Positions 36,270-53,438 of a DNA stretch of 64,000 bases are shown here, piece by piece. The DNA comes from Caenimonas aquaedulcis (GTDB lineage Bacteria; Pseudomonadota; Gammaproteobacteria; Burkholderiales; Burkholderiaceae_C). The stretch spans positions 2,056,118 through 2,120,117 of the forward strand of contig NZ_JADWYS010000001.1 of the NCBI RefSeq assembly GCF_015831345.1, read 5' to 3'. The notes under the pieces were generated by a model that was given only the letters and a program-made list of their open reading frames with translations, did not search any database and was not told the DNA's origin. How positions within the stretch are numbered: the first letter of the stretch is position 1; the number at the start of each line of letters is the position of its first letter. A program made the position numbers and the translations under genes.

Positions 36270-36359
36270 GGAGAGTTGGCAGAGCGGTTGAATGCACCGG
36301 TCTTGAAAACCGGCGACGTCGCAAGACGTCCGTGAGTTCGAATCTCACACTCTCCGCCA
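36270..36359 (+). tRNA. tRNA-Ser (anticodon UGA)
   Basis: Ninety bases with encoded CCA. Acceptor GGAGAGT pairs with ACTCTCC; the anticodon stem CCGGT/ACCGG closes loop CTTGAAA with anticodon TGA; a long variable arm (GACGTCGCAAGACGTC) marks serine; the T-arm is GTGAGTTCGAATCTCAC. The 3' end is the integration site of the island. Confidence 0.96.
36346..36359 (+). repeat. attL core direct repeat in tRNA-Ser
   Basis: CACACTCTCCGCCA, the last 14 bases of the tRNA gene, recurs at 57350-57363. It marks the left junction of the island; tRNA function is restored by the incoming identical sequence. Confidence 0.88.
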
Positions 36360-36399
36360 CACACCCAGCATTGGCGCGGCTTTTGGCCTACCGCCCCGG

Positions 36400-36414
36400 T
36401 TTACCCCCCTTTTT
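36400..36414 (+). repeat. Candidate integrase arm-type site (left)
   Basis: TTTACCCCCCTTTTT, 41 bases inside attL, is repeated in the same orientation at 57208-57222 over the integrase start. Paired repeats inside the ends fit arm-type recombinase sites; role inferred. Confidence 0.45.
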
Positions 36415-36617
36415 ACCCACTTTTTGGCATGTGCTGCTGTAGCGCGCTGTGGCGCGCCTTGCACAGGTAGCCTGCCTTGGGGCTTGGGCGGCCCAGCACG
36501 GGCGCGCAACCGGCCGCTTAAGCGCCCCTACGCTCCCGGCAGCGGCCCCCTGGCAATGCAAGTAGGGGCAACCGCACGCCCCACCAAACTAGCCCCTATA
36601 GGCGCAAAAAAGCCGGG

Positions 36618-37049
36618 TCAGTGCCCAGCCAATTCCCGCTCCACGGCCAGTTGCTCGACGAGCTCTGAAATCAGACGGACTTGATGTTCAGACAACGTTC
36701 TAAGTCGCGAAACTAGCTTTGCCTCGGGTTCGCTGAGGCGGCCTGCAGCGGTAGCTTGGCTAGACTTTTTTCCCGCCAACTTCCGCACAGGAGCAGGTGG
36801 AGACCCGTTACGGAGCCAGTAGGCGGTAACTCCAAGCATTTGCGCCAGCGTCTCCAGCTTTTCAGGCGAAGGCCTTGCCTTTCCAGTGATCCACTTCTGG
36901 GCTGCTTGGTCCGAGACGGACTCCCCGTCGTGGCGCAAGTTGAATTCGTGTGCGAGCTGGGCGGCGGATTGAATTGCCCCAGGCGCCCGCTTGAGTGCCG
37001 AGCGGAGGCGTTCAGAAAAGGCGGCTTTGTCGTCCCAGGCAGTCGGCAT
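36618..37049 (-). CDS. XRE-family transcriptional regulator
   Basis: 143 residues from ATG at 37049 (MPTAWDDKAAFSERLRSALK). A helix-turn-helix of the CI/Cro type is in SAAQLAHEFNLRHDGESVSDQAAQKWITGKARPS, with an LETLAQMLGVTAYWLRNG continuation. It ends SEHQVRLISELVEQLAV. No peptidase domain follows, so it resembles an island or prophage repressor. A longer frame to 37208 exists but the added part looks random. The region 36360-36617 before it holds only the left end and arm site. Confidence 0.85.
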   Translation of the reverse strand: MPTAWDDKAAFSERLRSALKRAPGAIQSAAQLAHEFNLRHDGESVSDQAAQKWITGKARPSPEKLETLAQMLGVTAYWLRNGSPPAPVRKLAGKKSSQATAAGRLSEPEAKLVSRLRTLSEHQVRLISELVEQLAVERELAGH

Positions 37050-37324
37050 GGGAAAGAGTGTGAAAGCGCGGCTGGTTCGCGTGTGAACCATATGGTTGTG
37101 CGAAACAACCGACTGAGCTATCTTCCAGCTTCCGAGGAGGGTGGTAAGGGGCTCTGTAGCAATGACGTCTCGGCCAACAGTGTTCGCACACGCGAATGCT
37201 GGCATCAAAACCAGGACGACATCCGAGCGAGGCGGTCAATCGGCCACCTCGGTCAATCAAGCGTGCTCCCACCAAAGCACAACCTCTCCTGCAAACCACA
37301 TACACACCCAAAGGTGCATCTACC

Positions 37325-38239
37325 ATGAACATGAAAAAGGTAAGTTCGAAACTCGGCAGTGTCGCAGGCGTAACGCGCCTCGTATTACTCGCAGTGCCGT
37401 GCGCGCTGATACTCTCGACGCTCACGGCTTGCACCAACAAGCCGCCGGGTTGTGCCGACCCGAAGGTAATTGAGTTGGCGAAGCAAATCGTCGAAGAGAG
37501 CATCGTGAAGAAGGCCGACCCCAACGGTTTGAGCCGGATTCAGGTTGCGCTGAGCATCGTTACGGAAGCGGGGTACAACGGCGATGTCGGAAAGTGGTCA
37601 TGTTCTGGGCAGGCAAACTTGCAGACCACGCCTGAAGTTTTGAAGGCGGTCAGCGAAGAGATCAAAATGATCCAAACGGTGACGCATCCAGACGCGGATC
37701 AGGCTGCCGCGATCGCACTATATCGGATGGCAGGAAAGAAATTCCTTACCGACGAGGAGCAAGGCTTGGCCTTCGCACTTGAAGCCCGTGCGTGGAAGCC
37801 GTACGCGCAGGAGGAGTTGAAGGCGGCCATGACCTTCACTTCGCAGTTCGAAGCGGGCGGCTCAAAGAACCTCGCAGTCGAAGTCCGCGGTGGCTCGGTG
37901 GAGTTCAACCAGTTTCCGCAGCTGGCGCGCTTGGCTGTCGAGCGGCAACAACGAGAGGCGAAAGCGGCGCCAGCTACTTCCGCTCAATCGAGTCCTCAAC
38001 CAGCTCCCGCGACCGCCACGGATCAACCTTTGAAGATTCAGGTTGCGAAGGCTGAAATGTGCGGTCCTGAAGCCCTCTGCATAACCGACGCGACTGGAGT
38101 GACATACACGGGAAACGCCTTTGCCATCGCTGACGCGGACCGCGCATCTGTCCTGGAAGCCGCAAAGCGTCAGGGCACGGTGTGCCTGAAGGGAGTGTCT
38201 GTACCAGACAAGACATTCGACTCCGCAGAAAAGTGCTAG
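37325..38239 (+). CDS. Hypothetical lipoprotein (304 aa)
   Basis: MNMKKVSSKLGSVAGVTRLV, then ILSTLTACTNKPPG: the signal ends in a lipobox with Cys near residue 39. The mature N-terminal half (ADPKVIELAKQIVEESIVKK) is helical and may resemble small lipid-anchored stress proteins. Residues 215-240 are a Pro/Ala/Ser linker. The C-terminal part has a CGPEALC...VCLKGVSV...EKC cysteine pattern. Divergent from the XRE gene. Function unknown. Confidence 0.7.
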   Translation: MNMKKVSSKLGSVAGVTRLVLLAVPCALILSTLTACTNKPPGCADPKVIELAKQIVEESIVKKADPNGLSRIQVALSIVTEAGYNGDVGKWSCSGQANLQTTPEVLKAVSEEIKMIQTVTHPDADQAAAIALYRMAGKKFLTDEEQGLAFALEARAWKPYAQEELKAAMTFTSQFEAGGSKNLAVEVRGGSVEFNQFPQLARLAVERQQREAKAAPATSAQSSPQPAPATATDQPLKIQVAKAEMCGPEALCITDATGVTYTGNAFAIADADRASVLEAAKRQGTVCLKGVSVPDKTFDSAEKC

Positions 38240-38338
38240 CTTCACCAAGTTTGGATCTCTCCAAACGGCACTAAGGACGCGTCTTCTTCTCTCTTGTTAA
38301 GATAAGAGCGTGGTCGTAAGAGCCAAAACGTCGGCCGG

Positions 38339-40066
38339 TCAATCGCTTGGAACCGTGCCCGACGAGGGCATGATGATTCGGCGAAAAAGCGGCCTCCAGC
38401 GACGCCGCTGCTCGGTCTCGCTCTGTTCAGCCCACAGTAGCGGGCTGGAGTTCTCTGGGCACTGAAAGTAGTACGCGCTGAGAAATGTGTTGGCCGGATC
38501 GCGAGGTGTCGAGTCGGGTCGCAACTCACGCTCTATCCGAGACACTACCTCTAGGCTTCCTGGCACCAGCGTATCCATGGTGCGGGATGCAGCTTGAGAG
38601 CACGCAACGCTTGGCGATTCGACCTTCAATTCGCAGAATTTCTTCTTTGCAGCACTTGACATTGCATACGCGGCAAACACGTTCGCGCGCGGGGTCAGTT
38701 TGGCCAGTCGCTCGGCGTGATGCTTTTCAAAGTGCTGTCCGTTCGGTCTGGTGTGGTAGAAGAAGACAAGCGTCTTGTCGATGACTCGATCGGGACTCAG
38801 ACGTTCGAGACTTTCAACTTGATCAATGCTTAGGTGCCATTCCCGCATGAATTCGTACACGTAGTGGTAGACCGAATTTTTCTCGTCCCCCGTCGTTACG
38901 AGGACTATGTCGCCCATGTCTCCGCCGACGCGACCCAATTCGACCATCAGTGTTCTTCGGATTTCCCGAATGGCGCTACGTATCGCCGCGATGTTCAAAT
39001 AGCTAGTCTTAAAGAATATCTCGAGTGCGGCTTCGCGCTCTTCCTGCTTGAAGTTGCGGAACCAGTCGCTGGCCGTCTGATAGAACGCCGTGCTCGTCAA
39101 CCCCCACGCTTCTATCTGGTTGACGATTAGTTGTCGTTGCTCGTTTGACCACGTCCAATCGCAGTTCAGGATCGAGTTATCGGGCGATTCAGGTGAAGGC
39201 ACGTTGGGGAGGGCAGGCTCGGTCTGCGTTGCCTTGGGCCGATAGGGAAAGAGAGGGGCCCATGGAAACGCGATGCCGTCCACCTTGTTGTTTTCTGTTT
39301 TGTGATTCGCCCATATTAAGGGCAGCGTATTGTTCGGGCATTGGAACCAGTAGGAAACCAGCAGGCCGGCGTTGCCATATCCAAACGGATGCTTGGAGTA
39401 CACCTGCGACCCGAGTTCCCGCAGGCGGTTCACTTCACGTGCCGTGAATTCATCGAAGATGCTGAGTGTCGCTACCTCCGGCAAGAGCCGAATGCCTTTT
39501 AATTCACGGCTGAATCGTAGCAGCGCTTTCTCCGCGATCGTCACTGCGACGAGGAACACTGCCTTAAAGTTCTCTCTCCGGACCTTAGAAAAGACTTCAC
39601 GTAGAAACTGATTGCCGGTGCCATGCGTGTCGTTGAAGAAGACGAGGACGCATCCCGCGTCCGTCCGGGCGAGATCCTCGACCGTTACCACCTGGTCTTG
39701 TCGCAAACCCCAAGCCTTAATGATGTCATAGGCGTGACGATCTGCACTGTCGCCGCGTTCCGAGGGCAACACGAGTCGCAGATCGCCGAGACTACTGCCG
39801 GTTTGAACGAGATATTGCTGGATTGGCACAAGGAAATTGTCGATTGCGCGCTTGAAGTCCGGCTCGCTGTAATGCTGCAGCTTCAGCATCACCTTCAAGG
39901 CCAGAGGCTGATCGGCGTGCGCAAAGTTCCCAAACCACGCGTCCACTCGGTTGTAGAAATCCTCAACTCCCATGCCCCAGGCTATGCGACGGTTGCGAAG
40001 TTCATCACGTAGGTATGTATCCAATCCCCGGAGATACGGTGTCGTGAATTGCCGTTCATCATTCAT
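38339..40066 (-). CDS. Tandem-duplicated phosphoribosyltransferase-like protein (PRTase-CE type)
   Basis: 575 residues. Two halves align: about residues 30-277 and 321-563. Shared landmarks are WG...DFYNRVDAWFGNF against WG...AFYQTASDWFRNF, VLVFFNDTHGTGNQF (140-154) against LVFFYHTRPNGQHF (433-446), and YWFQCPNNTLPLIWA (239-253) against YYFQCPENSSPLLWA (532-546). The first copy keeps an acidic/GTGN loop like the PRPP-binding loop of phosphoribosyltransferases and the NTLPLIW ending of the PRTase-CE conflict family; the second has lost the acidic residue and glycines. So one copy looks active and one degenerate. It overlaps the TrpF-like gene by 4 bases. Family assignment is from memory of motifs, moderate confidence. 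Confidence 0.6.
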   Translation of the reverse strand: MNDERQFTTPYLRGLDTYLRDELRNRRIAWGMGVEDFYNRVDAWFGNFAHADQPLALKVMLKLQHYSEPDFKRAIDNFLVPIQQYLVQTGSSLGDLRLVLPSERGDSADRHAYDIIKAWGLRQDQVVTVEDLARTDAGCVLVFFNDTHGTGNQFLREVFSKVRRENFKAVFLVAVTIAEKALLRFSRELKGIRLLPEVATLSIFDEFTAREVNRLRELGSQVYSKHPFGYGNAGLLVSYWFQCPNNTLPLIWANHKTENNKVDGIAFPWAPLFPYRPKATQTEPALPNVPSPESPDNSILNCDWTWSNEQRQLIVNQIEAWGLTSTAFYQTASDWFRNFKQEEREAALEIFFKTSYLNIAAIRSAIREIRRTLMVELGRVGGDMGDIVLVTTGDEKNSVYHYVYEFMREWHLSIDQVESLERLSPDRVIDKTLVFFYHTRPNGQHFEKHHAERLAKLTPRANVFAAYAMSSAAKKKFCELKVESPSVACSQAASRTMDTLVPGSLEVVSRIERELRPDSTPRDPANTFLSAYYFQCPENSSPLLWAEQSETEQRRRWRPLFRRIIMPSSGTVPSD

Positions 40067-40788
40067 TGCTCTGGGCTCTCATGGCATGCTTCGAGAAAGG
40101 CACGCAGTCGGACTGGATCCTTGCGATCGCGTCGTTCGGAAGATGTGACGCCCGACATGACGTCCACACCGTAGGGGCGAACCAAGCGACGAGCCTCAGC
40201 AACGTTGTCCGCGCTCAGCCCGCCCGCGAGGATGACGGGCGTTCCGGCAAACCGCTCCACCAGGCTCGCAGATGTTACCCAGTCATGAGCGACGCCGCTG
40301 CCGCCTTGCGGGCTGTCGAGCAGCACGGCGTCGATAGCCCCATGATCGACGTACGCGCGGATTTCGTCTTCGAGCGAGGAGACGGGCGCCCCAGATACAA
40401 CGGATATAGTCTTGATGATGCCCTGATCGGGAAACCGCTCTTTCAGCCGGCAAAGCATCGCTGGACTAAGGGGCTGCCGGATCTGCATGGCGTTCGGTTT
40501 GATTTCCTCAGCCAGCCGGAGCAAGTCATCCAGCTGAACGGCATCGACAAGCAACACCGATTTCAGCCCCACCGGCAGAGCCGCGGCCAAACTCGCCGCC
40601 TCGTCGAGCGCTAACCGATCCGAGCCCAACTTACGGGACACTCCTGGCTTGGTTAAAAGCATCCCGATTGCATCCGCACCCAGGTCTGCACATAGAACAG
40701 CATCGTCGATCGTGCACACACCACAGATCTTGACGAAGCCCCTGGTGGAAGCACCCGACGGCGAAAACATGGTTGAAGTGGTTTTCAA
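40063..40788 (-). CDS. TrpF-like phosphoribosylanthranilate isomerase homolog
   Basis: 241 residues from TTG at 40788, or ATG at 40770 giving MFSPSGAST; neither has a clear ribosome site. FVKICGVCTIDDAV carries the catalytic cysteine, VLLDSPQGGSGVAHDW the catalytic aspartate, VILAGGLSADNV the phosphate loop, and GVDVMSGVTSS the final strand. GVSRKLG keeps the substrate arginine. TrpF performs an Amadori rearrangement of a phosphoribosyl amine. No trp genes are near, and the gene is fused by overlap to the PRTase-like gene, so a specialised role on a phosphoribosylated molecule is likely. Confidence 0.8.
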   Translation of the reverse strand: MKTTSTMFSPSGASTRGFVKICGVCTIDDAVLCADLGADAIGMLLTKPGVSRKLGSDRLALDEAASLAAALPVGLKSVLLVDAVQLDDLLRLAEEIKPNAMQIRQPLSPAMLCRLKERFPDQGIIKTISVVSGAPVSSLEDEIRAYVDHGAIDAVLLDSPQGGSGVAHDWVTSASLVERFAGTPVILAGGLSADNVAEARRLVRPYGVDVMSGVTSSERRDRKDPVRLRAFLEACHESPEQ

Positions 40789-41024
40789 GATGTGTCAGAA
40801 ACTGGTGGCTGAGGGGCGCGTCCGGAATAGGTCCATCGGCGTCTACTACTCAGCTTACGCGAAGAACAGCGGTTGACACAAGCTGCGACTACACGAAATT
40901 CGCGTCACGATTGAGCCCAATAGCTAAGCACAACCAGTTCCAGCACGTCGCTAACGGCCACGACGCGATGCACGCGCACATGTCGGAACTGAGCCAAGAT
41001 GTCGCGCCTGACCATTGAGCCAAA
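40789..41024. other. Intergenic gap between the TrpF-like and GIY-YIG genes
   Basis: About 236 bases with no convincing gene. Short frames on the plus strand here are shadows of the TrpF gene or lack ribosome sites. The TrpF/PRTase promoter should lie in it. No terminator hairpin for the GIY-YIG gene was recognised, so readthrough is possible. Confidence 0.4.
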
Positions 41025-42230
41025 TCAGGTCTCGCGCGTCGCCCCCATCTTCACCAGCTGCACAGCTTTTGGATCGTAGACGTATTGAGTAATTGAACCA
41101 TCCGCAATGCGTTTGACGGCCTCATCAACTATGAACAACGGAACGAGGAACCACTCGCGCGGGACGACGGGGTTGCCGAAACGATCCTTGATCTCGACGT
41201 CCATGCGCGCCGGGCTAAACACGCGATGGATCAAGCTCTCGAGCCTGACTCGGTCAATGTTGTAAAGATCGTAGGTTGCGACAATCTCGACGTCGGCGAG
41301 GAGGAACGTCGGGTCGTACTTGGCGCCCGAGAAGCGCGCGGCGATGTTGCTGCGACCGGTAACACCAATCTTGTGCAGCACCTCGCGGTGCGCCGCGACA
41401 GCAGGCAACTCAGACTTGCTTCGGACCACGTAGATGGTGCCACTTTGCTGGTCGTCGTCGTCTATCTCATTGGAGAATAGCGGGCCATCATCCACCTTAA
41501 CCAGACGGCGTCCAGCCTTGCCATCGCTGTCCTTGTAGAGAGCTCTTTGGAGGGATCGAAGCAGCAAGTCGCTTTCTGTTCCGTTAGAGTAGATGACCCG
41601 GAGCCGCCCATTTGTTTCCGCATTGGGAGTCTTGTACGTGTCGCCCATCTCGGCGACATACGCGATCTGTCCTGCCAGGATAAAAAAGTCCCCAACCTCG
41701 ATGCTGGCGTCCTTGCCAAAGGGTTTGGTCTGCCACCGCTCCTCTTTCAAGCCCGTCTCGACTTCTTGGAACAGCGGCTTGAAATCCTCGAAATCCCTGC
41801 AGGGGGTGTGGGCCGCAATCTCTTCGGCAGCGCGTTTCTCCGCGCTTGTGCGGACATGACGCAATACGTTGATGTCATCTGCGCCCGTTACACCTGCAAG
41901 TTCGGCGGCTAGCTTGTACACATCGATGGCGTCCGACGGCTCTGAGGCGATCACCCCGCCTGCTAGCAAGCCTTGATGATCGAGTGGCACAAGCAGGCTG
42001 CGGCAGTCAGGAAGCGCGCGCAGCCGATCAAGGCGAACGGCGTATACGCGCTCGAAGATGTCCCGATCCTCGCCGTGTTGGGGGGCGCGACCATACTGCG
42101 CGAAGAATCGCTGAATTTCCTCAAAGCCTGCGATGACGCGCTCTTCCCGCGGGGAGCGTCCGCCCTTTTTTTCGGGCGCGGAGAATTCTGAAAGCTCCGA
42201 AGCCAATTCGTCGAGGTCCGGATCATTCAT
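41025..42230 (-). CDS. GIY-YIG (T5orf172/MUG113-like) nuclease-domain protein
   Basis: 401 residues from ATG at 42230, overlapping the helicase by 8 bases. After a 250-residue N-terminal region (RVIAGFEEIQRFFAQYGRAP, RVIYSNGTESDLLLRSLQRA) the nuclease domain shows GTIYVVRS, LHKIGVTGRSNIAARFSGAK with the conserved arginine, and RVRLESLIHRVF with the catalytic glutamate. It ends PREWFLVPLFIVDEAVKRI, usual for this group. Third gene of a methyltransferase-helicase-nuclease operon, it probably cuts DNA in a restriction-like system. Confidence 0.83.
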   Translation of the reverse strand: MNDPDLDELASELSEFSAPEKKGGRSPREERVIAGFEEIQRFFAQYGRAPQHGEDRDIFERVYAVRLDRLRALPDCRSLLVPLDHQGLLAGGVIASEPSDAIDVYKLAAELAGVTGADDINVLRHVRTSAEKRAAEEIAAHTPCRDFEDFKPLFQEVETGLKEERWQTKPFGKDASIEVGDFFILAGQIAYVAEMGDTYKTPNAETNGRLRVIYSNGTESDLLLRSLQRALYKDSDGKAGRRLVKVDDGPLFSNEIDDDDQQSGTIYVVRSKSELPAVAAHREVLHKIGVTGRSNIAARFSGAKYDPTFLLADVEIVATYDLYNIDRVRLESLIHRVFSPARMDVEIKDRFGNPVVPREWFLVPLFIVDEAVKRIADGSITQYVYDPKAVQLVKMGATRET

Positions 42231-44280
42231 AACGCCCCTCCGCCTTGAAGCGCATGAACGCCGACGCGCCTTCAGCCATGCGCCGCTCCCACACGTCCTG
42301 TGAGTCGAGCGCCGGAATCCGACCGCGCTCCCTTTTGAACTGCACCGCGCGGACAGCAAGCTCTTTCGCTTCATCGGGCGTCAGACTCGTGCGTTTGGCA
42401 GAGATGGCCGCCGCAACCTGCCTGAGACTTCCTTCGCTCATCGTCTTTGCAAGAATCGCATAGGCTTCGCCGAAGGGATTGATTCGGTCGATGAGGTCGA
42501 TGTCTAGCTCGCGCACGTCCATCGCAAAGCGGCGCACGCCATCGATGAGCGCCGTGTTGGTCGTTGGTTCAACGGCGTTGCCGCCGGCAACGATCTGCTT
42601 GGCCTGCTGGGTCAGATTGATAGCGGCAATGGCATGCTGACGAACGGCCTCCTGATCTTCCACGTCAAGGTCAGGATACTTGTCCCTGATGATCTTGCCC
42701 ATGCGAATCTGAGTGAGCTCTTCGGGCACAAGGTCTTCGTCGAAAAGTCCGCGCTCAACCGCGGTCTTGTCCTGAATGAACGTGGCGATCACCTCGGTCA
42801 AGTCCTCCTGGCAAATGCGCGCGGCTTCTTTGCTCCTAGGTTCGGCAAGGCCCCTTATCTCGATCTGCACCTGTCCCGTTTCGTGATTGACACCGACGTT
42901 GGACCTGCTCGGATCGTATCCCCCCTCGCCGTAGTCGAAGCCAGGTGTAGGCCCGTTGTTGGGGTTCTTAGGTCGGAACTCAAAGCGCGGAGCGAGCACC
43001 TGTTCCATCAGCAAGCTCGCCGCGATGGCCTTGAGTGTGTCGTTGACGGCTTCCGTCACGGCTTCCTCCGAAGCATCAGGTTCGGCAATCAAGTTGGTGA
43101 ATCGCGTACGGGTCTTCCCTGGCGCGTCGCGAGTGGCGCGCCCGATGATCTGGACTATTTCAGTAAGGCTAGCTCTGTAGCCAACCGTGAGCGCATGCTC
43201 GCACCAGATCCAGTCGAAGCCCTCCTTGGCCATGCCAAGCGCAATAATTATGTCCACATAGTCTCGACTATTTTTCTGTGCTGGATCTCTCAACGCAGCC
43301 GACACGCGGTCGCGCTTCGTGGCGTCGTCGTCGACAAGATCGGCGATCCGCAGCACGCGGCCGTCGGGGAGCTTAACAAGCTGAAAACCGGTCGTGGCGT
43401 CGATGCCCTGCCATTCACCGAGCGTCTCGATTATGTGCTCGACCTCGCGCACCTTGTCCTTCGTGCTCTCGCGCGAATTGACGTTGGGAATATGGATGAT
43501 CGTCTTTTCGGCCGGGTCGAGGACGTCGAGGATGTCATCAACGTAGGGCCCGCTGTAGAAGAAGTAGCCTATATCGAGCTGCTTCAGGTACTCATACCCG
43601 TTGAGCTGCTCGTAGTAGGTGTAGGTAACAGTGTCGAATTTGGTCTCATCTGAGGGCGACAGCACGGACTCTGCATCGCCCCGGAAGTAGGAGCCGGTCA
43701 TCGCGACGATGTGCGTCTTGCCACGGCCGATGAACTGCCCGAGATGCTGGCCGAGCTTGTTGTCGGAATTGGACGAAACGTGGTGGAACTCATCGACGGC
43801 AATGAGCCGGTCGTCGAACGCTTCGATACCGTAGGCATCGACAGCGAAACGGAACGTCGCGTGAGTGCAGACAAGTACCTTGTCGGCGCCGTCAAGGAAG
43901 ACGCCGACGGATTTCACCTTGCCGCCGTTTTCATTGCCGGGTGCATTGCATAGATTCCATTTCGGCTCGACATGCCAGTCCGACCAGAAGCCGAAACTTG
44001 ACAGCGGCTCGTCGCTGAAGCTAGCGCCAATGGACTTTTCGGGCACGACGATGATGGCCTGCTTGATGCCTTGGTTCTTGAGCTTGTCGAGTGCCACGAA
44101 CATGAGCGCGCGGCTCTTGCCCGAAGCGGGCGGCGACTTGATCAGAAGATACTGCTCCCCGCGCTTTTCGTAGGCGCGCTCCTGCATCGGTCGCATCCCC
44201 AAAGCGTTAGCCTTGGTCGATGCGCCGTTGCGCACGTAGGAAACGGAAACCGTGGGGACGGACTTGATCTTCTCGTTCAT
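42223..44280 (-). CDS. DEAD/DEAH-box helicase (superfamily 2)
   Basis: 685 residues. Walker A in LLIKSPPASGKSRALMF (about residues 45-61), motif II as VDEFHHV, motif III TGSYFRGD, and motif VI QIIGRATRDAPGKTRTRF. The C-terminal 250 residues are a helical extension (AVRQHAIAAINLTQQAKQIV). It is coupled by 4 bases to the methyltransferase and overlaps the GIY-YIG gene. Probable ATP-driven DNA translocase or unwinder of a restriction-type complex. Confidence 0.9.
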   Translation of the reverse strand: MNEKIKSVPTVSVSYVRNGASTKANALGMRPMQERAYEKRGEQYLLIKSPPASGKSRALMFVALDKLKNQGIKQAIIVVPEKSIGASFSDEPLSSFGFWSDWHVEPKWNLCNAPGNENGGKVKSVGVFLDGADKVLVCTHATFRFAVDAYGIEAFDDRLIAVDEFHHVSSNSDNKLGQHLGQFIGRGKTHIVAMTGSYFRGDAESVLSPSDETKFDTVTYTYYEQLNGYEYLKQLDIGYFFYSGPYVDDILDVLDPAEKTIIHIPNVNSRESTKDKVREVEHIIETLGEWQGIDATTGFQLVKLPDGRVLRIADLVDDDATKRDRVSAALRDPAQKNSRDYVDIIIALGMAKEGFDWIWCEHALTVGYRASLTEIVQIIGRATRDAPGKTRTRFTNLIAEPDASEEAVTEAVNDTLKAIAASLLMEQVLAPRFEFRPKNPNNGPTPGFDYGEGGYDPSRSNVGVNHETGQVQIEIRGLAEPRSKEAARICQEDLTEVIATFIQDKTAVERGLFDEDLVPEELTQIRMGKIIRDKYPDLDVEDQEAVRQHAIAAINLTQQAKQIVAGGNAVEPTTNTALIDGVRRFAMDVRELDIDLIDRINPFGEAYAILAKTMSEGSLRQVAAAISAKRTSLTPDEAKELAVRAVQFKRERGRIPALDSQDVWERRMAEGASAFMRFKAEGRYE

Positions 44281-47063
44281 GCGTTCGCTCCCGCCTTACG
44301 TTTCTTGGCTTCGGCCGGCAAATCCGCGGCGGTCATCTTGGTATAAAGGTCGAACAGCTTCTCCAGCCGCTCGGTGTCGTTCTTGAAGCGGCGACCAATG
44401 TAAATGCGCTCCAGCACCTCATCGTTGTGCTTATGAGCAGCCCGTAGTTCACTAGGCATGCTGTCGGGATCGTAGAGATCAGCGATGGTAGCGGGGAAGT
44501 GATGCTCGCGTGCGATCAATATGTCCTCGGCACAGCGAGTCAAGTCGGCCTTGTTTTTCTCAGTCAATGGCGGAAGTGGGAATGTGTTGTAGCAGGTCGC
44601 GGAGGTATAGCGAAGATCACTTTTTAGCTTCCCCGCAACAGCTCTTACCCAGCTCATATGTAGTGTCGAAGACATTATTGCCAGGACATACAAGCTCGCA
44701 TTCTGAACAATGCTCGCCGCATTGTTGATGATGTACTCATCAGAGAGATATCCCGCGGTAATGAACTCTCGGCGCTCCGAAAATACCGTGGGGACAATGA
44801 TCTGGCGCCCCTCTCTCTTGTTAATCCAAGCAAACTTATGCGCTCGGTTCGCCGCGGTGCGTGCGCGTGTCCCAGCGTTCCGACGGTAACTGCGAACGGC
44901 CTCAACTCTTTTTGCTATTTCGGGGTGCTCAAGTGCCTTGTTGAGCTCTTCATCGCGAATCCACAGGCACCAACGCTGCGTTCCACGGATAAACTCGGAC
45001 GATCCTAGATAGGGTCTGACGAATCGAGCTGTGTCTTCTGATCCACTCGCGCTGACCTGCTCACAACTGAGTTTGTCCAGAATCAAATTGCCCCCGTCTA
45101 AAGCACCGCTTCCGTCGGTGATCTCCGCGTCAAACCCAATAGGTACCTTCCGCCCTTTGACGAATACGTTGCTTGCGTTCAACAAGTACGCATTGATCTG
45201 AGAAACCTCACGGACTCGGGTTTCGCCATTCTCGTCGGTTTCAAACAACCTTCTCTTGCCAGCAGCGTCGGATGTGATGCCTACCACGATGACAATAACG
45301 CCGGCATTGTGGCTCGCTAGGTTTGACCATTTGAACGATGTATGCGCAAAGGCGATGCTTTGGCCGTGTCCGAATACGATGGGCCAGAGGATGGAGGCCT
45401 GTAAGCCTTGGCAAATGGAATTCGTCGTCACGAAAGCTGTGGCGCACCGGCATCTATCGCCGTACTGCGCTGCCTTGATAACCCAAGCCGCAACATAGTC
45501 GAGAGCTCTCCAGTCCTGTGCCTTGTGAGAGGCGATCGCTCCCAAATCCTCGGTCTGCTCCGTCGTCCTCCAATTGCTTCCCTTGTAAGGGGGATTCCCG
45601 CAAATGTAGGTCTCGCCGCCCTCGTTCTCGAAGTCGATCTCAGCTTGGTCAAGCGGGGTTCCGAATAGGTCATCGGCCTGGATTTTCACGCCCGTTCCGC
45701 TAGGCGGGCAGATGCTCAGCCAGTCGAGTCGAAGCGCATTTCCACAAGTGATCCAGTTTTCACTGCGCAAAGGCAGAAACTCTGCCAACGCCAGCTTCTG
45801 CCCGCGATAGAGCACGTCACATTGGTACTCGGCGATGACCAGGGCGAGGCGAGCGATCTCTGCCGGGAAGTCACGCAGCTCGATTCCTCGCAAATTGGTG
45901 AGCGGGATTTCTGAAGCATGATCTGGCTCTCCGCGCCGCCGGTTGATCTCTGCTTCTATCGCGCGCATTTCCTTGTACGCGATGACAAGAAAATTGCCGG
46001 AGCCGCAGGCCGGGTCGAAGACCCTGATTTTCGACATACGCTTGCGTAAGTTGAGCAAGGTGCGGGGATTGTCACTCGCCTCGTCCAGGCGCGCGCGGAG
46101 ATCGTCGAGGAATAGCGGATTCAGCACCTTGAGGATATTGGGGACGCTTGTGTAGTGCATCCCCAGCTCGCCGCGCTCTTCGTCTTCGGCAACCGCCTGA
46201 ATCATCGACCCGAAGATGTCCGGATTGATCTTGGTCCAATCAAGGCCGCCGACGTGCAGCAGGTAAGAGCGGGCGATCTTGCTGAACGTAGGCACGTCCA
46301 TGCTGCCGGAGAAAAGGCCGCCGTTCACATACGGGAAATCATCGGCCCAGCGGGGAATATTGGCGGCTGTTCTGTCCGCACCCGCCTTGGTATTCATGGC
46401 TAGGAACAGCGTACTCACCACCTGGTGGGTATTCGATGAGTCCTTTGCGCTCATTCGCGCAATCGTCTCAGTGAATTTGCCTCTGCCAACAAAGATGTCT
46501 GTGTCTTCGGCAAAGAAGCAGAAGATTAGCCGTGCCATGAAGTGATTCATGTCGTGGCGGCGCTCTGCCCTGCCCCAGTCCGGGTTGTCTTTCAACAGTT
46601 CGACATAGAGTCGATTTAGACGGCTTGTCGCCCGGATATCGAAGGCGTTCTCGCTAATCTGACGGACGGTGCTGATACCCGCCAGAGGTAGAAAGAAGCC
46701 GAAGTGGTCGGGGAAATCTTTAAAGGCGCAGGCGACGGTCTCGCCGCTAGTCAGGTCTTCGGCCTCGAAGTCCTCTCCGTCGGTGGTGAGAATGAACTTC
46801 GCCTTAGCCTTGGCGGTTGCGGGGCTGGCCTTAAGTGCGGCCAGCGTTTCGGTCACTGTGCCAGGGTCTGCGGCCGCAATGTGGATGTTGTTAGTCTGAA
46901 GAACGCCCCCGAGGTCGGATTTGTTAGAAGTCCCGGCGCGTAGCCTTTTAATCGTCGTTTCCTTGTTGCCGAAGGCCTCAAGGAAAGAGTAGGGGAAGTT
47001 AAGCGCATCAAACGGGCGGTCAGCCAGGTCGGTGATGGCTTGTTCAATCTCAACTGCATTCAA
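44277..47063 (-). CDS. MmeI-type class I DNA methyltransferase
   Basis: 928 residues from TTG at 47063 (LNAVEIEQAITDLADRPFDA), preferred because GGAGGGG precedes it; a GTG at 47126 would add 21 residues. Residues 60-350 are the helical MmeI-like spacer (HFGFFLPLAGISTVRQISEN). AdoMet motif I is FDPACGSGNFLVIAYKEM, and the amino-methylation motif is ICGNPPYKGS (NPPY), so it methylates adenine or cytosine N4. The C-terminal third is a target-recognition region. I see no obvious D-ExK nuclease site at the N-terminus, so cleavage may come from the GIY-YIG partner. Confidence 0.85.
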   Translation of the reverse strand: MNAVEIEQAITDLADRPFDALNFPYSFLEAFGNKETTIKRLRAGTSNKSDLGGVLQTNNIHIAAADPGTVTETLAALKASPATAKAKAKFILTTDGEDFEAEDLTSGETVACAFKDFPDHFGFFLPLAGISTVRQISENAFDIRATSRLNRLYVELLKDNPDWGRAERRHDMNHFMARLIFCFFAEDTDIFVGRGKFTETIARMSAKDSSNTHQVVSTLFLAMNTKAGADRTAANIPRWADDFPYVNGGLFSGSMDVPTFSKIARSYLLHVGGLDWTKINPDIFGSMIQAVAEDEERGELGMHYTSVPNILKVLNPLFLDDLRARLDEASDNPRTLLNLRKRMSKIRVFDPACGSGNFLVIAYKEMRAIEAEINRRRGEPDHASEIPLTNLRGIELRDFPAEIARLALVIAEYQCDVLYRGQKLALAEFLPLRSENWITCGNALRLDWLSICPPSGTGVKIQADDLFGTPLDQAEIDFENEGGETYICGNPPYKGSNWRTTEQTEDLGAIASHKAQDWRALDYVAAWVIKAAQYGDRCRCATAFVTTNSICQGLQASILWPIVFGHGQSIAFAHTSFKWSNLASHNAGVIVIVVGITSDAAGKRRLFETDENGETRVREVSQINAYLLNASNVFVKGRKVPIGFDAEITDGSGALDGGNLILDKLSCEQVSASGSEDTARFVRPYLGSSEFIRGTQRWCLWIRDEELNKALEHPEIAKRVEAVRSYRRNAGTRARTAANRAHKFAWINKREGRQIIVPTVFSERREFITAGYLSDEYIINNAASIVQNASLYVLAIMSSTLHMSWVRAVAGKLKSDLRYTSATCYNTFPLPPLTEKNKADLTRCAEDILIAREHHFPATIADLYDPDSMPSELRAAHKHNDEVLERIYIGRRFKNDTERLEKLFDLYTKMTAADLPAEAKKRKAGANA

Positions 47064-47383
47064 GCTCCGCCCCTCCGGGTATTTTGGTGCGTATTTCGGG
47101 TACCCCCCCGATGCTGAGCCCACCACGACCGAGGTCAGACAACCAAAGGGACGTTTACTCCCCCAACTGAAAGTGTGCCGCGCTTGAATCCTAACCTACT
47201 CGTCTCTCCGTTCAGCTCAACCGTGCTCTTCCCTGTGCCAAGGGCGAGTGCACGCGCTAACTCGACACAACGTGGCTACCCACCCAGAACTGTGAGCGCT
47301 CACTCACTTGATGTCGTTGCGACTGAGCTTGCGGCACTATTGCCCTTCGGATAACATTCACGCAATTCACGTGAGATAACTAA
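47064..47383. promoter_or_regulatory. Divergent promoter region with a perfect 12-bp palindrome
   Basis: This 320-base gap separates the methyltransferase operon (minus) from the STAS-like operon (plus). GTGAGCGCTCAC at 47292-47303 is a perfect palindrome, and CACGTG occurs again near 47369. A candidate -10 (GATAACAT) lies at 47350. No credible gene is seen in it. The palindrome may be an operator, perhaps for the winged-helix domain of the first plus-strand gene; inference. Confidence 0.5.
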
Positions 47384-47971
47384 ATGAATCCTGCCACCGT
47401 CATCGATGTGCAAGTCCTCTACGGCTCGAAGACGCTAGCCGGCACCGGGGCCGGAAAAGCCTTCTTACCAAAGCTGATTGAGCAGTGCGCCAGCGTTCCC
47501 GCCCAAGCACTTGCGGCGGTGGATCTGCGGAAGACAGACCTGGTCACCGCGTCCTTCTTTCGCTCATCGTTTAAGGCGCTACGAGACTACGGTCGAAATC
47601 AGGCCGACTTCTATGTCGTCCATCTGTGCCGCGACAAGGCGACCATCGAGGAGGTCGCAGCCTACGCGGGTGATGTCAGCGACGCATTTCTCTTCGGCGA
47701 TATTGACGGGCACGGAGAAATCGTCCGACCATTCCTAGTTGGTGCGCTCGATGACAAACAGCGACGTGCGCTGGACGCAATCACGGAACTCGGCGAAGCT
47801 GATGCCTCCACGCTTTTTTCGCGTTACCCAGAAAATCCGCCACTCTCCACGTCGGCCGCGTGGAGCAACCGTCTTGCGGCGCTCTCACAAAAGGGGCTTA
47901 TCTGCGAGCGCGTCGATGGGCGTTCCAAGTTCTACCGGCCGATCTTCAAGGAAATCAGGCATGGGGTTTAA
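47384..47971 (+). CDS. STAS-like (DUF4325-type) protein with C-terminal winged helix
   Basis: 195 residues, MNPATVIDVQVLYGSKTLAG. Residues 20-115 have the STAS-like DUF4325 features: VDLRKTDLVTASFFRSSFKA and a DFYVVHLCRDKATIEEV strand. Residues 125-190 form a winged helix (DKQRRALDAITELGEADAST...AAWSNRLAALSQKGLICERV). In other genomes DUF4325 proteins sit with GHKL-type ATPases like SpoIIAA/SpoIIAB; here such an ATPase lies 1.5 kb on. It probably both binds a partner ATPase and regulates DNA. First gene of a plus-strand operon, overlapping the next by 11 bases. Confidence 0.65.
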   Translation: MNPATVIDVQVLYGSKTLAGTGAGKAFLPKLIEQCASVPAQALAAVDLRKTDLVTASFFRSSFKALRDYGRNQADFYVVHLCRDKATIEEVAAYAGDVSDAFLFGDIDGHGEIVRPFLVGALDDKQRRALDAITELGEADASTLFSRYPENPPLSTSAAWSNRLAALSQKGLICERVDGRSKFYRPIFKEIRHGV

Positions 47972-48320
47972 CTACATCAATTCGCAGGCGAAGAGCCATA
48001 CCAAGGCGTGGAGTGACCGGTTCACGCAGTCCGCCGACAACCTCTTCGCGCTGCCTGCAAACCCCATTGAGCGCACGTTTGTGGCGAAATCGGGTGGGGC
48101 GCTGAAAGTGGCTGAAGGTGAAATCGTCCACGTGCGACGCATCGAAACAGGTCTCGTTGTTTTCCAGGGGCTGACGCCGCTGGCGGCCGCAGACAAGCCT
48201 TCGCTGGCCCTGTTTGAGATGGTCGATTCAAAGCATGGCGTGATGCGGGGCGTGGTTACGGAGGTAATTTCCGAGGCCAATGTGATGATCGTCAAGGTCT
48301 CTGAAGGAGCCACCAAGTGA
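47961..48320 (+). CDS. Hypothetical small protein (119 aa)
   Basis: MGFNYINSQAKSHTKAWSDR from ATG at 47961. The second half (LKVAEGEIVHVRRIETGLVV, GVMRGVVTEVISEANVMIVK) is beta-rich and may be a small barrel of the OB or SH3 kind. It overlaps both neighbours (11 bases before, GTGA after), tying it into the operon. No family recognised. Confidence 0.6.
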   Translation: MGFNYINSQAKSHTKAWSDRFTQSADNLFALPANPIERTFVAKSGGALKVAEGEIVHVRRIETGLVVFQGLTPLAAADKPSLALFEMVDSKHGVMRGVVTEVISEANVMIVKVSEGATK

Positions 48321-49489
48321 TCGACAAAGCTGACGCCCAATCTCTCATCCGCACCCTGTGGCACAACCGCGGCGAACCGCCGGCGATGGGATGTCGTGAT
48401 TGTCCCGATCGCCCCGAATGCGGCGGACTCCAGGTGTCGGCGTCGTTGTTCGATTGCATGGATCACTGCACCTGTGTGGATCGTCAGGCGTGTCAGAAGG
48501 TATGTCCCAACAATCGACACTTTGTCGCGCGCATCCACGAGGTGCGCGGCTTTGGGTATGACGACATCGAGCGCCGTCGCGGCATTCCGCTCGTGCAATT
48601 ACCGACGTTCGCCCATCTGCTGTTCACCTACCCAAAAATCTCGAACCTCGTTCAACTCCCTGTAGCTGCGATTCCGCTAAGCGATGCATTCAATCGGTCA
48701 GGAAAAGGTGGTACAGCGCTCACCCGCAGCGAGGTCGACAGCCGCTTTCGGTTGGCGGCCAAGACGCCTCTGATCTTGTCCGGCGTCGGGCTTGACCGGA
48801 AGATCGAAAAGTTTTGGGGTGTGACGCGTGGCCGATCAGAATTGCTTGCCGGTATCCGCGCTTTAGATCCGCTGATGGTGACTACGCCGAACTACAGCGT
48901 CACGCTCGACGCTCCACGCCACGATGCAATGCACAGCTTGAAGCGCATCTTATTGTCTTGGTCGGAACTGCACGACGCCGGCCTCCGCACAGCCCTGCAC
49001 CTCAACGCCGTTACGGATCGCGACTACGGTCGCATGGCGGAGTTTCTGAGCGCTCATTCGGAAATCCGCGCTGTAAGTGTCGAATTTGAAACTGGAGCGG
49101 CTCCCGAGGAGCAGGGCGTCTACCACGCTCAACAGCTCGATGAACTTGTTCAACGGATTGGGCGGCCTCTTCATCTTGTCTTTAGGGGCGACGCACGTTG
49201 GGTTCCCATGCTGCAGAAGAGTTTCCCAAGCATCACTGCTCTAAACGGCTCAGCTTCTATCAGGACCCGAATGAGAAGGCGGGCGGTCTTAGCAGGTGAG
49301 CAGTTGAGTTGGGCAAGCGCGCCGACGCAAGAAGGAGAGGCTTTGGATGAACTGCTCGCACACAACCTGCGCAGCGTGAGCCTGTGGTTCAGCGCGAAGA
49401 CGATTGCTCCGGTGCCGTCCCGGAAGAAAGCGCCGCTAGAAGTACGTCCGAAACGTCACGACGAGGCCCGGCAACCGGGCCTTCTGTGA
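48317..49489 (+). CDS. Cys-rich protein with probable alpha/beta-barrel domain
   Basis: 390 residues from GTG at 48317 after GAAGGAG. Eight cysteines cluster at residues 26, 29, 35, 47, 51, 53, 59 and 63 (GCRDCPDRPECGG, then CMDHCTCVDRQACQKVCPNN), a ferredoxin-like or zinc-binding pattern. Residues 90-330 alternate strands and helices (TPLILSGVGLDRKIEKFWG, NYSVTLDAPRHDAMHSLKRI, LHLNAVTDRDYGRMAEFL, PLHLVFRGDARWVPMLQKSF), suggestive of a barrel like DUF4417 or tRNA-guanine transglycosylase relatives. That likeness is weak. Its end overlaps the convergent GHKL gene by 54 bases. Confidence 0.55.
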   Translation: MIDKADAQSLIRTLWHNRGEPPAMGCRDCPDRPECGGLQVSASLFDCMDHCTCVDRQACQKVCPNNRHFVARIHEVRGFGYDDIERRRGIPLVQLPTFAHLLFTYPKISNLVQLPVAAIPLSDAFNRSGKGGTALTRSEVDSRFRLAAKTPLILSGVGLDRKIEKFWGVTRGRSELLAGIRALDPLMVTTPNYSVTLDAPRHDAMHSLKRILLSWSELHDAGLRTALHLNAVTDRDYGRMAEFLSAHSEIRAVSVEFETGAAPEEQGVYHAQQLDELVQRIGRPLHLVFRGDARWVPMLQKSFPSITALNGSASIRTRMRRRAVLAGEQLSWASAPTQEGEALDELLAHNLRSVSLWFSAKTIAPVPSRKKAPLEVRPKRHDEARQPGLL

Positions 49490-50254
49490 AATCGTAGGCG
49501 CCCTTTCCATAAGAGCCTTGCCGCTGACTTCGAGCGAATAGTCTCCGCTGCGTAAGCGAATTTCCGCGTCCAGTGAATTCAGCCCGCGAAACAAGGTGCT
49601 AAAGCCGTGCCCGCGGCCCTCGCCGTCCGCTGTCGTCGAGAATCGCGATGTCCCGTCCCGAACTGCCAAGGCCAAGGCCATTCCAGCATCAGAAAGATAC
49701 GCATAGGCTGGATTTTGTCTCAGGCTTGCCATAACACCCATCCCTGCATCACTCACGGAAATGTCAAGGTATTCGGGTGTTCCTAGAAATCCCACGATGC
49801 CAGTCCGGGGTGCGCCGGAGTGCTCAAAAACATTGTCAAGCATCTCACCCACCGCCCCGCACACCAGACCCTTGGTTTGCGATCCGTTCCGCTTGAACTT
49901 CATCATGCGGCGCGCCTCAGTATCGAAGGCCAAGAGAGCCGGCCTGAAAGCGTCGGCACTTACTGCATCAAGGCACATGAATCCCGCTGCTTGCTCCGCC
50001 TGGTTGCAGGTGAATGTCTGCAATGGCGATTTGCGGGCGTTTCGTAGGGGAGTGGCTATGTGCCGTGGCAACCGCTCTTTCGCGAATTTTGACCAGCTTG
50101 CGCTGCTCTGTGCGAGCGACGCGACCTCCAAGATTGGACCAAGCGAGTTGATAACCAGGTCGGCCGCTGCCGCCTTTTCAAACTCGACCCCATGATCCGC
50201 CGCGAGAGCGGCTGTATCCAGCCTCCTAAAATTAGCTAATAAATCAGTGGGCAT
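49436..50254 (-). CDS. GHKL (histidine-kinase-like) ATPase
   Basis: 272 residues from ATG at 50254; longer starts exist without ribosome sites. The Bergerat-fold motifs are GAVGEMLDNVFEHSG (N box), LDISVSDAGMGVMASLR (G1) and GRGHGFSTLFRGLN (G2-like lid). No histidine phosphoacceptor or receiver is present, so it resembles SpoIIAB-type or conflict-system ATPases more than a sensor kinase. It likely works with the STAS-like protein at 47384. It is convergent with the Cys-rich gene, their coding ends overlapping by 54 bases. Confidence 0.72.
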   Translation of the reverse strand: MPTDLLANFRRLDTAALAADHGVEFEKAAAADLVINSLGPILEVASLAQSSASWSKFAKERLPRHIATPLRNARKSPLQTFTCNQAEQAAGFMCLDAVSADAFRPALLAFDTEARRMMKFKRNGSQTKGLVCGAVGEMLDNVFEHSGAPRTGIVGFLGTPEYLDISVSDAGMGVMASLRQNPAYAYLSDAGMALALAVRDGTSRFSTTADGEGRGHGFSTLFRGLNSLDAEIRLRSGDYSLEVSGKALMERAPTISQKARLPGLVVTFRTYF

Positions 50255-50426
50255 GGCGAATGTTACTTGTTCGTCATCGGGACGGGGCAGACGGCCTTGA
50301 ATGAGAGAGCGCCCGCGCGATGTAGCCATACACATAGACAATCGATGGCCCGAACACGCCGGGTAACTCGTGACTGATCCTAGGTGTGGCGAGCGTGCGG
50401 CAAACAACTGTGCGAGGATTGGCCTG

Positions 50427-51512
50427 ATGAATCGAGACCTTTCCTTTAATAGGCGCGCCGTCGCAGGCCGTCGCGAGTACGTCCGAAACTTCTCCGTTGC
50501 TCATTCGGGAGATACCGAGTTTCAAGGGTTTTTAAAGTGCAAGTTGGTTCATCACCCAAACTATTCCACCATTGTCCCAGACCTCATTTTTCTTGAGGTA
50601 GCCTCCAAGCTGTTATGGATTCAACCGCTATTCTTTTTGGCATCACATGTCGGCTTTGATGAAGAGACGGGAGCGGGCCTGTTGATAGTGGATGTGGCGC
50701 ATGGTGCTCGCGTACAGGTTAGGTTTTCAAGCGACGCTGTGCGTACACATTTGACGGACGGAAGTCTGCTCTATGCCTGCACAGTTCACGGAGTTCCTTA
50801 CCTGCCGTCGCTCGCTACGGGGGAAGCCAGACTTCTGGGAAACGCCCCCCAAATTCGCCTCTTCCACCACACGTCAGCATCGGCCAAGCGAGATATTCGC
50901 AAATCCGGTTACTTTTGGACGTCGAGCTGGAACATCAAGGGAACGGAGAAGTTAGTCAATATCGCATATCTTTATCTCACGCCGCTCGACGAAATTTCGG
51001 AAGAGGCTGATCTGCTGCAGATCGCAATGGCCAGCAACGAAAAGATTGGATATCAGGTCGATCAGAATCAAGGTCCAGAGCCAGACCTGATTCTCAAGGT
51101 CTACCGCGGGAGCACCCGCAAACGCCGACACGTTCTGGCGGGCTGGGTTTCGTGTGACCAGATCTCACCTGCACCCATCTACCGTCATACGCCTACTGAC
51201 GGCGCTGTGTACTACGAGGTTGTGAGTCCATTTATTTGCCGGATGGGTGCTCACCCAGACAGCAAAATTTCGATAGTCGATCATGTGTTTATCGCTGATG
51301 CACCGAAGCAACTGGATTACGTCGTGGTTGGCGATGCGACATCGGTCGAAGGGCTGGCTGCGCCCTACACGGAGGAAAATACCACCCACATCTGGAAGAT
51401 CGTGCGAACGGCCCCGAACGATGATTTCGTGTCCTACTGGCGTGATCATGCCAACACGCCTGAATTTGCAGGCATTTCCGTGGAGCTGGCGCAAGTGGTG
51501 GCAGCTTCTTAG
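50427..51512 (+). CDS. Hypothetical protein, possible ADP-ribosyltransferase-like fold
   Basis: 361 residues from ATG at 50427 after GAGGA; GTG at 50370 would add 19 residues. Residues about 145-195 (IRLFHHTSASAKRDIRKSGY, FWTSSWNIKGTEKLVNIAYL) have the HxT/S and sG.f..S spacing seen at the start of ADP-ribosyltransferase and RES-like folds. No certain catalytic Glu was assigned. The rest (VHGVPYLPSLATGEARLLGN, VYYEVVSPFICRMGAHPDSK) is unrecognised. It is divergent from the GHKL ATPase with 172 bases between. Family assignment is weak. Confidence 0.5.
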   Translation: MNRDLSFNRRAVAGRREYVRNFSVAHSGDTEFQGFLKCKLVHHPNYSTIVPDLIFLEVASKLLWIQPLFFLASHVGFDEETGAGLLIVDVAHGARVQVRFSSDAVRTHLTDGSLLYACTVHGVPYLPSLATGEARLLGNAPQIRLFHHTSASAKRDIRKSGYFWTSSWNIKGTEKLVNIAYLYLTPLDEISEEADLLQIAMASNEKIGYQVDQNQGPEPDLILKVYRGSTRKRRHVLAGWVSCDQISPAPIYRHTPTDGAVYYEVVSPFICRMGAHPDSKISIVDHVFIADAPKQLDYVVVGDATSVEGLAAPYTEENTTHIWKIVRTAPNDDFVSYWRDHANTPEFAGISVELAQVVAAS

Positions 51513-51542
51513 TTCACCACCGTATTGGGTTAGCGCTTGTCT

Positions 51543-52295
51543 ATGGAACAGTCCATCGAACTGAAGCATAAGGCTCGTTTGCTTGCGATCGTATGCGTGC
51601 CACATGAACATCGCGTTGCTTGCCAGCAACCAGGGTGTGGGCATGGCGTTTACGCCGCAATCCACGTGGTCGAAGACAGCGGCGAATTGATAGTACTAGG
51701 GTCGACCTGCTTCTCCCGTCGCTACGGTGCCGCTGATGCGCTGGGCGCTGCGAAGTTCGGTGCCGGAGGGGGTCGCTTGCTCACAGACGATGAACGGGCG
51801 CTACTAGCCGCAAACACCCGCGACTTGCTTTCCCGATTTGAGGCAGAAGCGCAGACGGCAGCCAATTCGCGATTGGCCGATCAACGTGCACGCGAGTTGG
51901 CCAGACAGGAGCTTACTTGCGAGCGCCGAAACGCCAGTCCGTATTCGCCCGAGCCTACACCGTTGCAGCAACAACCAACCCTCCCCAGCTTTTCTCGTTC
52001 CGGGTCACGACCTTGGCCTTGGCAGCACCCGAGCCGCACGTCTGTCGCCTTGCTCGAAGCGCCTGGCGGGGCAAAGTGGATCCGCGTGGAACACTGCGAC
52101 TCGTCCCAGAAGCTAGTACCTTGGCCAGCATTCGAAGGTTGGGAGACTGCACTCCCCAAGGAACTCGGCGTTCCGGATCTATCCATAGCTGCTATCGCCG
52201 TGCATGACATAGTCGAAGCACTCGCATTGCTCAGACGAATCGGATTCGCTGGCCCGTACGTTGGCACTTGGCCGGCAGTTTTGCGACGAACCTAG
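51543..52295 (+). CDS. Hypothetical protein with N-terminal Cys/His zinc motif (250 aa)
   Basis: MEQSIELKHKARLLAIVCVPHEHRVACQQPGCGHGVYAAI; the pattern C-x9-C-x4-C...GSTCFSRRYG suggests a zinc site within the first 60 residues. A helical AQTAANSRLADQRARELARQ stretch follows, then a proline/Ser linker and a C-terminal VALLEAPGGAKWIRVEHCDS domain. 30 bases after the previous gene, so perhaps one transcript. Not recognised. Confidence 0.55.
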   Translation: MEQSIELKHKARLLAIVCVPHEHRVACQQPGCGHGVYAAIHVVEDSGELIVLGSTCFSRRYGAADALGAAKFGAGGGRLLTDDERALLAANTRDLLSRFEAEAQTAANSRLADQRARELARQELTCERRNASPYSPEPTPLQQQPTLPSFSRSGSRPWPWQHPSRTSVALLEAPGGAKWIRVEHCDSSQKLVPWPAFEGWETALPKELGVPDLSIAAIAVHDIVEALALLRRIGFAGPYVGTWPAVLRRT

Positions 52296-52359
52296 TATGG
52301 CTATGACGTCGGACCAGAGTTCAATTCCCGAACCTGTGAGGCGGCATCGGGAAAGGCTG

Positions 52360-53380: not shown

Positions 53381-53438
53381 GCCGTAATTCCCGGAGGCAG
53401 CATCTGAAGACGAACGGATGCTGCCTCCCCTTCGCTCA

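Follow-up and report, generated by a model that had tools for sequence, protein, structure and literature searches.

The window analysed here, a stretch of 64,000 nucleotides from Caenimonas aquaedulcis, carries on a mobile island two overlapping genes, one for a tandem phosphoribosyltransferase (PRTase) of the PRTase-CE family and the other for a TrpF-like isomerase, which almost certainly form a real and co-inherited unit. In our judgement the pair is probably defensive. A more detailed reading, to which we give somewhat less than an even chance, is that of a two-gene defence (conflict) module in which the PRTase acts as the effector, its C-terminal half exerts control, the TrpF-like enzyme rearranges the product and phage growth is stopped.

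The TrpF-like gene lies upstream and the PRTase gene downstream, and the earlier note was right that they overlap by the four bases ATGA (Table 1). The placement it had given for both genes also holds, with one probable correction to the start of the TrpF-like gene. Judging from the aligned proteins, the ATG at 40770 is more likely the start codon than the TTG at 40788, because the residue at this ATG (Met7 of the 241-aa form) is Met in 18 of the 19 members of the TrpF clade described below. A search for promoter-like sites over 38200-41300 gave none, against 1.3 expected. The gap to the three genes upstream is 254 bases when counted from the ATG and 236 when counted from the TTG.

Table 1. 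Features of the gene pair and its island, in window coordinates (residues of the TrpF-like protein in 241-aa numbering)
Feature	Position	Strand	Basis
Tandem PRTase-CE protein, 575 aa	38339..40066	-	PF24390, PADLOC PRTase_III-A, AF2 model
TrpF-like isomerase, 235 aa from ATG 40770 (TTG 40788 possible, 241 aa)	40063..40770	-	PF00697, model and Foldseek
ATGA overlap: stop of TrpF-like gene and start of PRTase gene	40063..40066	-	Read in the sequence
N-terminal PRTase half, residues 1-285, predicted catalytic	39212..40066	-	
PRPP loop region FFNDTHGTGNQ, residues 143-153	39608..39640	-	Alignment of 38 rows
C-terminal PRTase half, residues 301-575, degenerate copy	38342..39166	-	
Codon of the presumed catalytic Cys, C22	40723..40725	-	Cys in 19/19 clade members
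Codon of the presumed catalytic Asp, D158	40315..40317	-	Asp in 19/19 clade members
Mobile island at tRNA-Ser carrying the pair	36346..57363		14-base tRNA-end repeat at both ends, integrase, GC

The tandem PRTase-CE protein

The larger protein had been described as PRTase-like, and profile searches bear this out: it matches the Pfam family PRTase-CE (PF24390) with an E-value of 8.8e-34 and 118 bits, against a curated cut-off of 27, and the PADLOC PRTase_III-A models with an E-value of 2.8e-33. Its AF2 model has a pLDDT of 89.0 and a pTM of 0.72, and each half resembles solved type I phosphoribosyltransferases in structure and shows the type I fold. By sequence, the PRTase query matched none of 177635 solved structures at E-values up to 1.

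The proposed tandem duplication is likewise clear. An hhalign comparison of the two halves gives an E-value of 3.8e-45 and a probability of 100, while five column-shuffled alignments used as a control gave probabilities of 0.1-0.2%. A further finding is that the second half is degenerate. In the N-terminal half the loop residues N145, D146, T147, G149, G151 and Q153 are invariant in all 38 rows of alignment A1, and several retron- and ORC-type relatives have a D-D-x-x-G-S/T-G motif at the aligned place; by analogy with type I PRTases we take it to bind PRPP. The C-terminal half is without this loop, with His438 in place of the Asp in 38/38 rows and Gly443 present in 23/38. Despite this loss it retains an invariant signature of its own.

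The TrpF-like isomerase

The smaller protein matches PF00697 with an E-value of 2.4e-18 and 67 bits (cut-off 22.7). Its model has a pLDDT of 91.9, and the 11 best Foldseek matches are all PRAI/TrpF structures. The earlier note had stressed the catalytic Cys, Asp and Arg, and all three are kept throughout the island clade: Cys22, Arg58 and Asp158 are found in 19/19 members. Asp209 is found in the 18 of 18 members that reach this site, the Rhizobium piece stopping short of it. The Arg58 column aligns poorly in canonical TrpF rows, and only the count for the island clade is used here. The catalytic roles of C22 and D158 are assumed from the TrpF literature.

Several features set these proteins apart from canonical TrpF. 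The motifs that we take to be the QLHG motif and the phosphate loop are both affected. The canonical Q-L-H-G is lost and is mostly replaced by Q-(V/I)-(Q/R), in 17/19 proteins at each of two places, and Met211 lies within the phosphate loop in 18/18. Positions 45 and 58 are 13 residues apart in 19/19 island proteins compared to 6-10 residues in 180/180 canonical rows. Because of the lost QLHG and the longer segment before Arg58, the substrate is perhaps not plain phosphoribosylanthranilate. The same changes near the active site, namely the lost QLHG, the 13-residue spacing and Met211, could also be expected if the TrpF-like protein were a folded but non-catalytic partner, either a subunit or a phage sensor which regulates the PRTase. 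We consider this improbable, since a purely structural role would not need the catalytic Cys, Asp and Arg that all 19 proteins have kept.

A tree of 55 rows separates the 19 island TrpFs from the canonical ones by a single branch with a support of 100/100. Of the 179 canonical proteins listed, 35 were used in this tree together with the native TrpF; the residue counts used all 180. The best score against the NCBIfam TrpF equivalogs listed is 102.3 bits, below the cut-off of 215. In the genome a native trpF (C1:1545313) precedes trpB and the first part of a trpA-like frame (names by eye), so that the canonical step is already covered. We can rule out that the island gene is a recent copy of the native trpF, which is found elsewhere in the tree. 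In agreement with the earlier note, which saw no other trp genes nearby, trpB is missing beside the pair: a tblastn search with the native TrpB, which recovered itself in locus L001, had no match in the window or in the two other loci that carry the pair (L003 and L018, see below).

The mobile island and its gene content

The pair does lie on a mobile island, as had been proposed. Its left edge is the end of a tRNA-Ser gene (36346-36359), a 14-base copy of which is found at 57350-57363, and a tyrosine integrase gene (55930-57207) sits just inside this right-hand repeat. The GC content per 2 kb is 0.54-0.61 in the island compared to 0.62-0.71 outside. At third codon positions it is 0.655 in the PRTase gene and 0.665 in the TrpF-like gene versus 0.94 in ureC and 0.91 in the gene at 58366-59532 outside the island. 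In the five same-genus genomes searched no empty site was found; the flanks match at different places, and on the left side the tRNA end alone matches in 5/5.

The right-hand part of the island (53439-57207, minus strand) codes for a G2P-type replication protein (PF05144, E-value 8.3e-25), an H-NS-like protein and the tyrosine integrase. Because of these three proteins the island may be a replicating integrative element or a phage satellite. Three genes precede the pair on its strand, within 41025-47126, and code for an MmeI-type IIG restriction-modification protein (PADLOC REase_MTase_IIG, E-value 1.4e-278), a DEAD/ResIII helicase and a T5orf172/MUG113 protein. The idea that these genes and the pair form one conserved operon is unsupported, as tblastn searches with all three proteins had no match in L018 or L003. 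Most of the proteins encoded between these two regions, in 47384-51512, are nameless: one has a weak HTH match, another a weak HATPase_c match, a third is Cys-rich (by eye), and one of 380 aa has no Pfam match. This cluster could be another conflict system.

Recurrence and co-divergence of the pair

The pair is not unique to this genome. It was seen directly in three loci, with the same gene order and a close junction in each: the window, an IMG/VR contig (L018) and the chromosome of Rhizobium sp. RCAM05350 (L003). On the IMG/VR contig the TrpF-like gene spans 65-829 and the PRTase gene extends up to 2538, starting at the ATG at 829 within TGATG or at the TTG at 826. Genes for a tail protein and an endolysin adjoin this pair on the opposite strand. 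Because the pair sits at the end of the contig, it could belong to a prophage as cargo or to the host DNA next to one. In the Rhizobium chromosome both genes are broken by frame changes, an observation that speaks against a two-enzyme module.

Five further pairs consist of TrpF and tandem PRTase clusters whose longest contigs are of equal size (6102, 6976, 8698, 11384 and 85500), so that five of the eight pairs are matched through contig size alone. Seen from the TrpF side, 8/19 clusters, the window included, are matched to a tandem PRTase; among the 11 unmatched ones 5 are on contigs below 2.3 kb, too short for both genes, and 6 on longer contigs. From the PRTase side, 7 of the 40 tandem clusters (P0001-P0040) and the Rhizobium piece P0053 are matched among the TrpFs listed. 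The other 33 have no TrpF on an equal-sized contig among the best 120 TrpFs listed per search, and some of these are on long contigs (P0015, 660597; P0032, 1732255). These unmatched clusters suggest that the TrpF-like protein may be dispensable for tandem PRTases. The missing matches weigh little, because the contig listed per cluster is apparently that of the cluster's representative and because they refer to the best 120 TrpFs listed. On the PRTase tree the label for a matched TrpF needs 6 changes, and 123-126 of 500 shuffles are as low. For this tree the fragments P0021 and P0027 and 10 of the 18 entries P0041-P0058 were left out; seven of the latter and P0053 were kept. The unclustered label and the unmatched clusters both tell against an obligate pair, and hence against the two-enzyme module, with the same reservation about the contigs listed.

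The two proteins have diverged together. Over the eight matched pairs, a set that includes three protein pieces (P0021, P0053 and P0182), the identities of the TrpFs and of the PRTases co-vary with an r of 0.979, and 6 of 20000 permutations are as high. The first six pairs alone give an r of 0.92, with 7 of 720 permutations as high.

The tandem form is rare in the genomes searched. A scan of genome contigs (37 stretches) found five relatives, one of them a tandem with TrpF, and a scan of viral contigs (13 stretches) found one relative. Four overlapping whole-genome draws, taken around the window's genome (399, 399, 369 and 398 genomes), had a full-length tandem only in the window's own genome, and plasmid and phage records searched with the PRTase had no match. 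This rarity is the sole point in favour of the view that a stray trpF came to lie beside a PRTase gene by chance. We reject this explanation, which seems hardly conceivable given that the pair recurs in L018 and L003 with the same order and close junction, that its TrpFs belong to a single clade and that the divergence of the two proteins is matched.

PRTase-CE domains in other contexts

Distant PRTase-CE hits came from 16 genomes, and flanks were taken for 13 of them (stretches of 9.0-16.6 kb), the other three being left out. A retron III-A reverse transcriptase adjoins PRTase-CE in 4/13 of these loci (L026, L030, L033 and L035). In the three loci scanned for it (L027, L028 and L034) an ORC-CDC6-like ATPase adjoins PRTase-CE each time, and L031 and L032 have, by eye, a similar arrangement. 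DNA-methyltransferase-like genes are found in the same gene strings as PRTase-CE and the ORC-CDC6-like ATPase, in L027 by scan and in the others by eye.

Fusions also occur. PRTase-CE is fused to an AAA ATPase in L024 and to SAVED in the database protein P0057, possibly a PRTase effector triggered by cyclic oligonucleotides. Two Campylobacterota MAGs encode PRTase-CE together with TPR repeats and NB-ARC, the latter with 30.5 bits in L006 (9543-12506) and, below the cut-off of 23.5, with 20.0 bits in L005 (9914-12715); both look like STAND-type proteins with a PRTase effector. In L029 (2659-9476) two copies of a QueC-like gene (QueC by eye) flank the gene for a 929-aa protein that has PRTase-CE at its end, and in P0041, P0043 and P0049 PRTase-CE is followed by a long C-terminal part with no Pfam match at an E-value of 0.01.

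The TrpF profile has no match in any of the 17 other PRTase-CE loci (the 13 distant ones and L004-L007, of which L004 and L007 are truncated where their contigs stop). A six-frame TrpF search of all loci in our set has matches in the window's genome, in L018 and in L003, and nowhere else. The TrpF-like protein is thus not needed for PRTase-CE action in general, as other PRTase-CE genes do without it. With such varied partners and fusions, PRTase-CE looks like a modular effector, and its TrpF partner is seen only with the tandem branch.

The link between PRTase-CE and conflict systems, which the earlier note had traced to genome mining, is supported by the retron III-A, ORC-CDC6-like, NB-ARC-TPR and SAVED contexts, and also by the available parts of two papers (PMC12548924; PMC9122126). 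This bears on whether the pair might instead be a small metabolic pathway, either for the synthesis of a phosphoribulosyl metabolite or for base salvage on behalf of the mobile element. Both genes do resemble biosynthetic enzymes. The partners found elsewhere, such as the retron III-A reverse transcriptase, SAVED, NB-ARC-TPR and, on our assumption, the ORC-CDC6-like ATPase, are however parts of conflict systems, and the pair itself has a restriction gene as its neighbour on the mobile island and genes for phage tails as neighbours in L018. We therefore regard a metabolic pathway as quite unlikely.

A possible mechanism

The company that PRTase-CE keeps elsewhere, the island setting and the phage genes beside the pair in L018 are our reasons for a defensive reading, and a defence module is supported by the effector positions that PRTase-CE occupies in several other systems. 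In such a module release or activation of the protein would allow the N-terminal half to take PRPP and to phosphoribosylate an acceptor that offers a nitrogen of an amine-like or nucleobase kind. The C-terminal half, which has lost the PRPP loop and kept its own signature, would sense a ligand or hold the enzyme off. The TrpF-like enzyme would act on the N-phosphoribosyl product by an Amadori mechanism, with Cys as the base and Asp as the acid. The product would become a 1-deoxyribulose-5-phosphate adduct, so that the reaction could not run back. Phage growth would then stop, either because the cell loses PRPP or because a compound that is toxic or acts as a signal arises in it.

The PRPP loop is invariant, the Amadori residues are kept, and the two genes overlap and have diverged together; a two-step path is the simplest reading of these facts. 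That the TrpF-like enzyme acts as a second step on the product of the PRTase is, in our judgement, only a little short of an even bet. The most specific version is an Amadori-chemistry defence, in which the PRTase and a dedicated TrpF-derived isomerase would stop infection with a stable phosphoribulosyl product made from PRPP and a nitrogen compound of the cell or the phage. We regard this version as doubtful.

The main rival is that the TrpF-like protein is an antidote. It might remove a harmful phosphoribosyl compound that the PRTase makes at a basal rate, or bind and block the PRTase, until the balance is upset by infection, and the pair would resemble a toxin-antitoxin unit with an enzyme as the antitoxin. 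Many toxin-antitoxin operons have the small gene first and the effector second, with an overlap, and this is also the layout of the pair. The kept catalytic residues and the close co-divergence with the PRTase would fit this role, as would the absence of TrpF from the other PRTase-CE loci, which would have other controls. On the other hand an antidote should be hard to lose, and the tandem clusters without a matched TrpF among those listed argue, weakly, against it. We consider the antidote unlikely, and prefer the module in which the isomerase works on the product of the PRTase.

That a dedicated isomerase has stayed with one branch of PRTase-CE points to the type of product, an N-phosphoribosyl compound that is capable of Amadori rearrangement. 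The effect of PRTase-CE effectors on the cell can thereby be tested directly, through a comparison of metabolites in the presence and absence of the TrpF partner. That the same pair occurs in other bacteria gives a hint of a novel defence chemistry.

Comparison with known systems

PRTase/WH effector genes are described as typical of retron III-A1 in the available part of PMC12548924, and the accessible text of PMC9122126 presents retron PRTases as probable effectors whose mode of action is unknown. The window protein shares with the retron III-A effector the PRTase-CE domain with its PRPP loop and the match to the same PADLOC PRTase_III-A models. It differs in being a tandem with a degenerate second half and in its TrpF partner. 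We reject membership of retron III-A because none of the 18 window proteins scanned has a reverse transcriptase (RVT) match in Pfam; the window scan also had no match to wHTH-PRTase_assc.

A closer parallel in layout is the pair of DprA and PRTase that, in the same part of PMC9122126, protects against T7 and lambda. It too is a two-gene unit with the PRTase as the presumed effector, but its partner is DprA-like and not an isomerase, and the likeness is one of layout and presumed role. NCBIfam NF053875 names another PRTase 'DS32_1_antiphage'. We infer that DS32_1 is probably a system of PMC13092281, the available part of which gives its systems DS numbers and has the abbreviation PRTase in a legend on validated systems, although 'DS-32' is absent from its main text. 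The DS32_1 protein is named as phosphoribosyltransferase-like and anti-phage, and the window PRTase has weak similarity to it over residues 210-274. With 21.3 bits versus a cut-off of 250, the window PRTase falls outside this family. No PRTase is mentioned in the portion of PMC7159879 available to us, and NadV-like enzymes are the only PRTase-related find in that of PMC9503650. Among the open-licence papers listed, none links TrpF or Amadori chemistry to phage defence.

With TrpF itself (PF00697) the island isomerase has the fold and the catalytic residues in common, but it belongs to a separate clade, has an altered QLHG and segment before Arg58 and has no trpB beside it. In amino-acid biosynthesis, TrpD-TrpF and HisG-HisA both follow a phosphoribosyltransferase step with an Amadori isomerase, which is the order of reactions that we propose for the pair. 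TrpD and HisG have folds other than that of type I PRTases, whereas the island PRTase is type I-like by structure and is carried on a mobile island.
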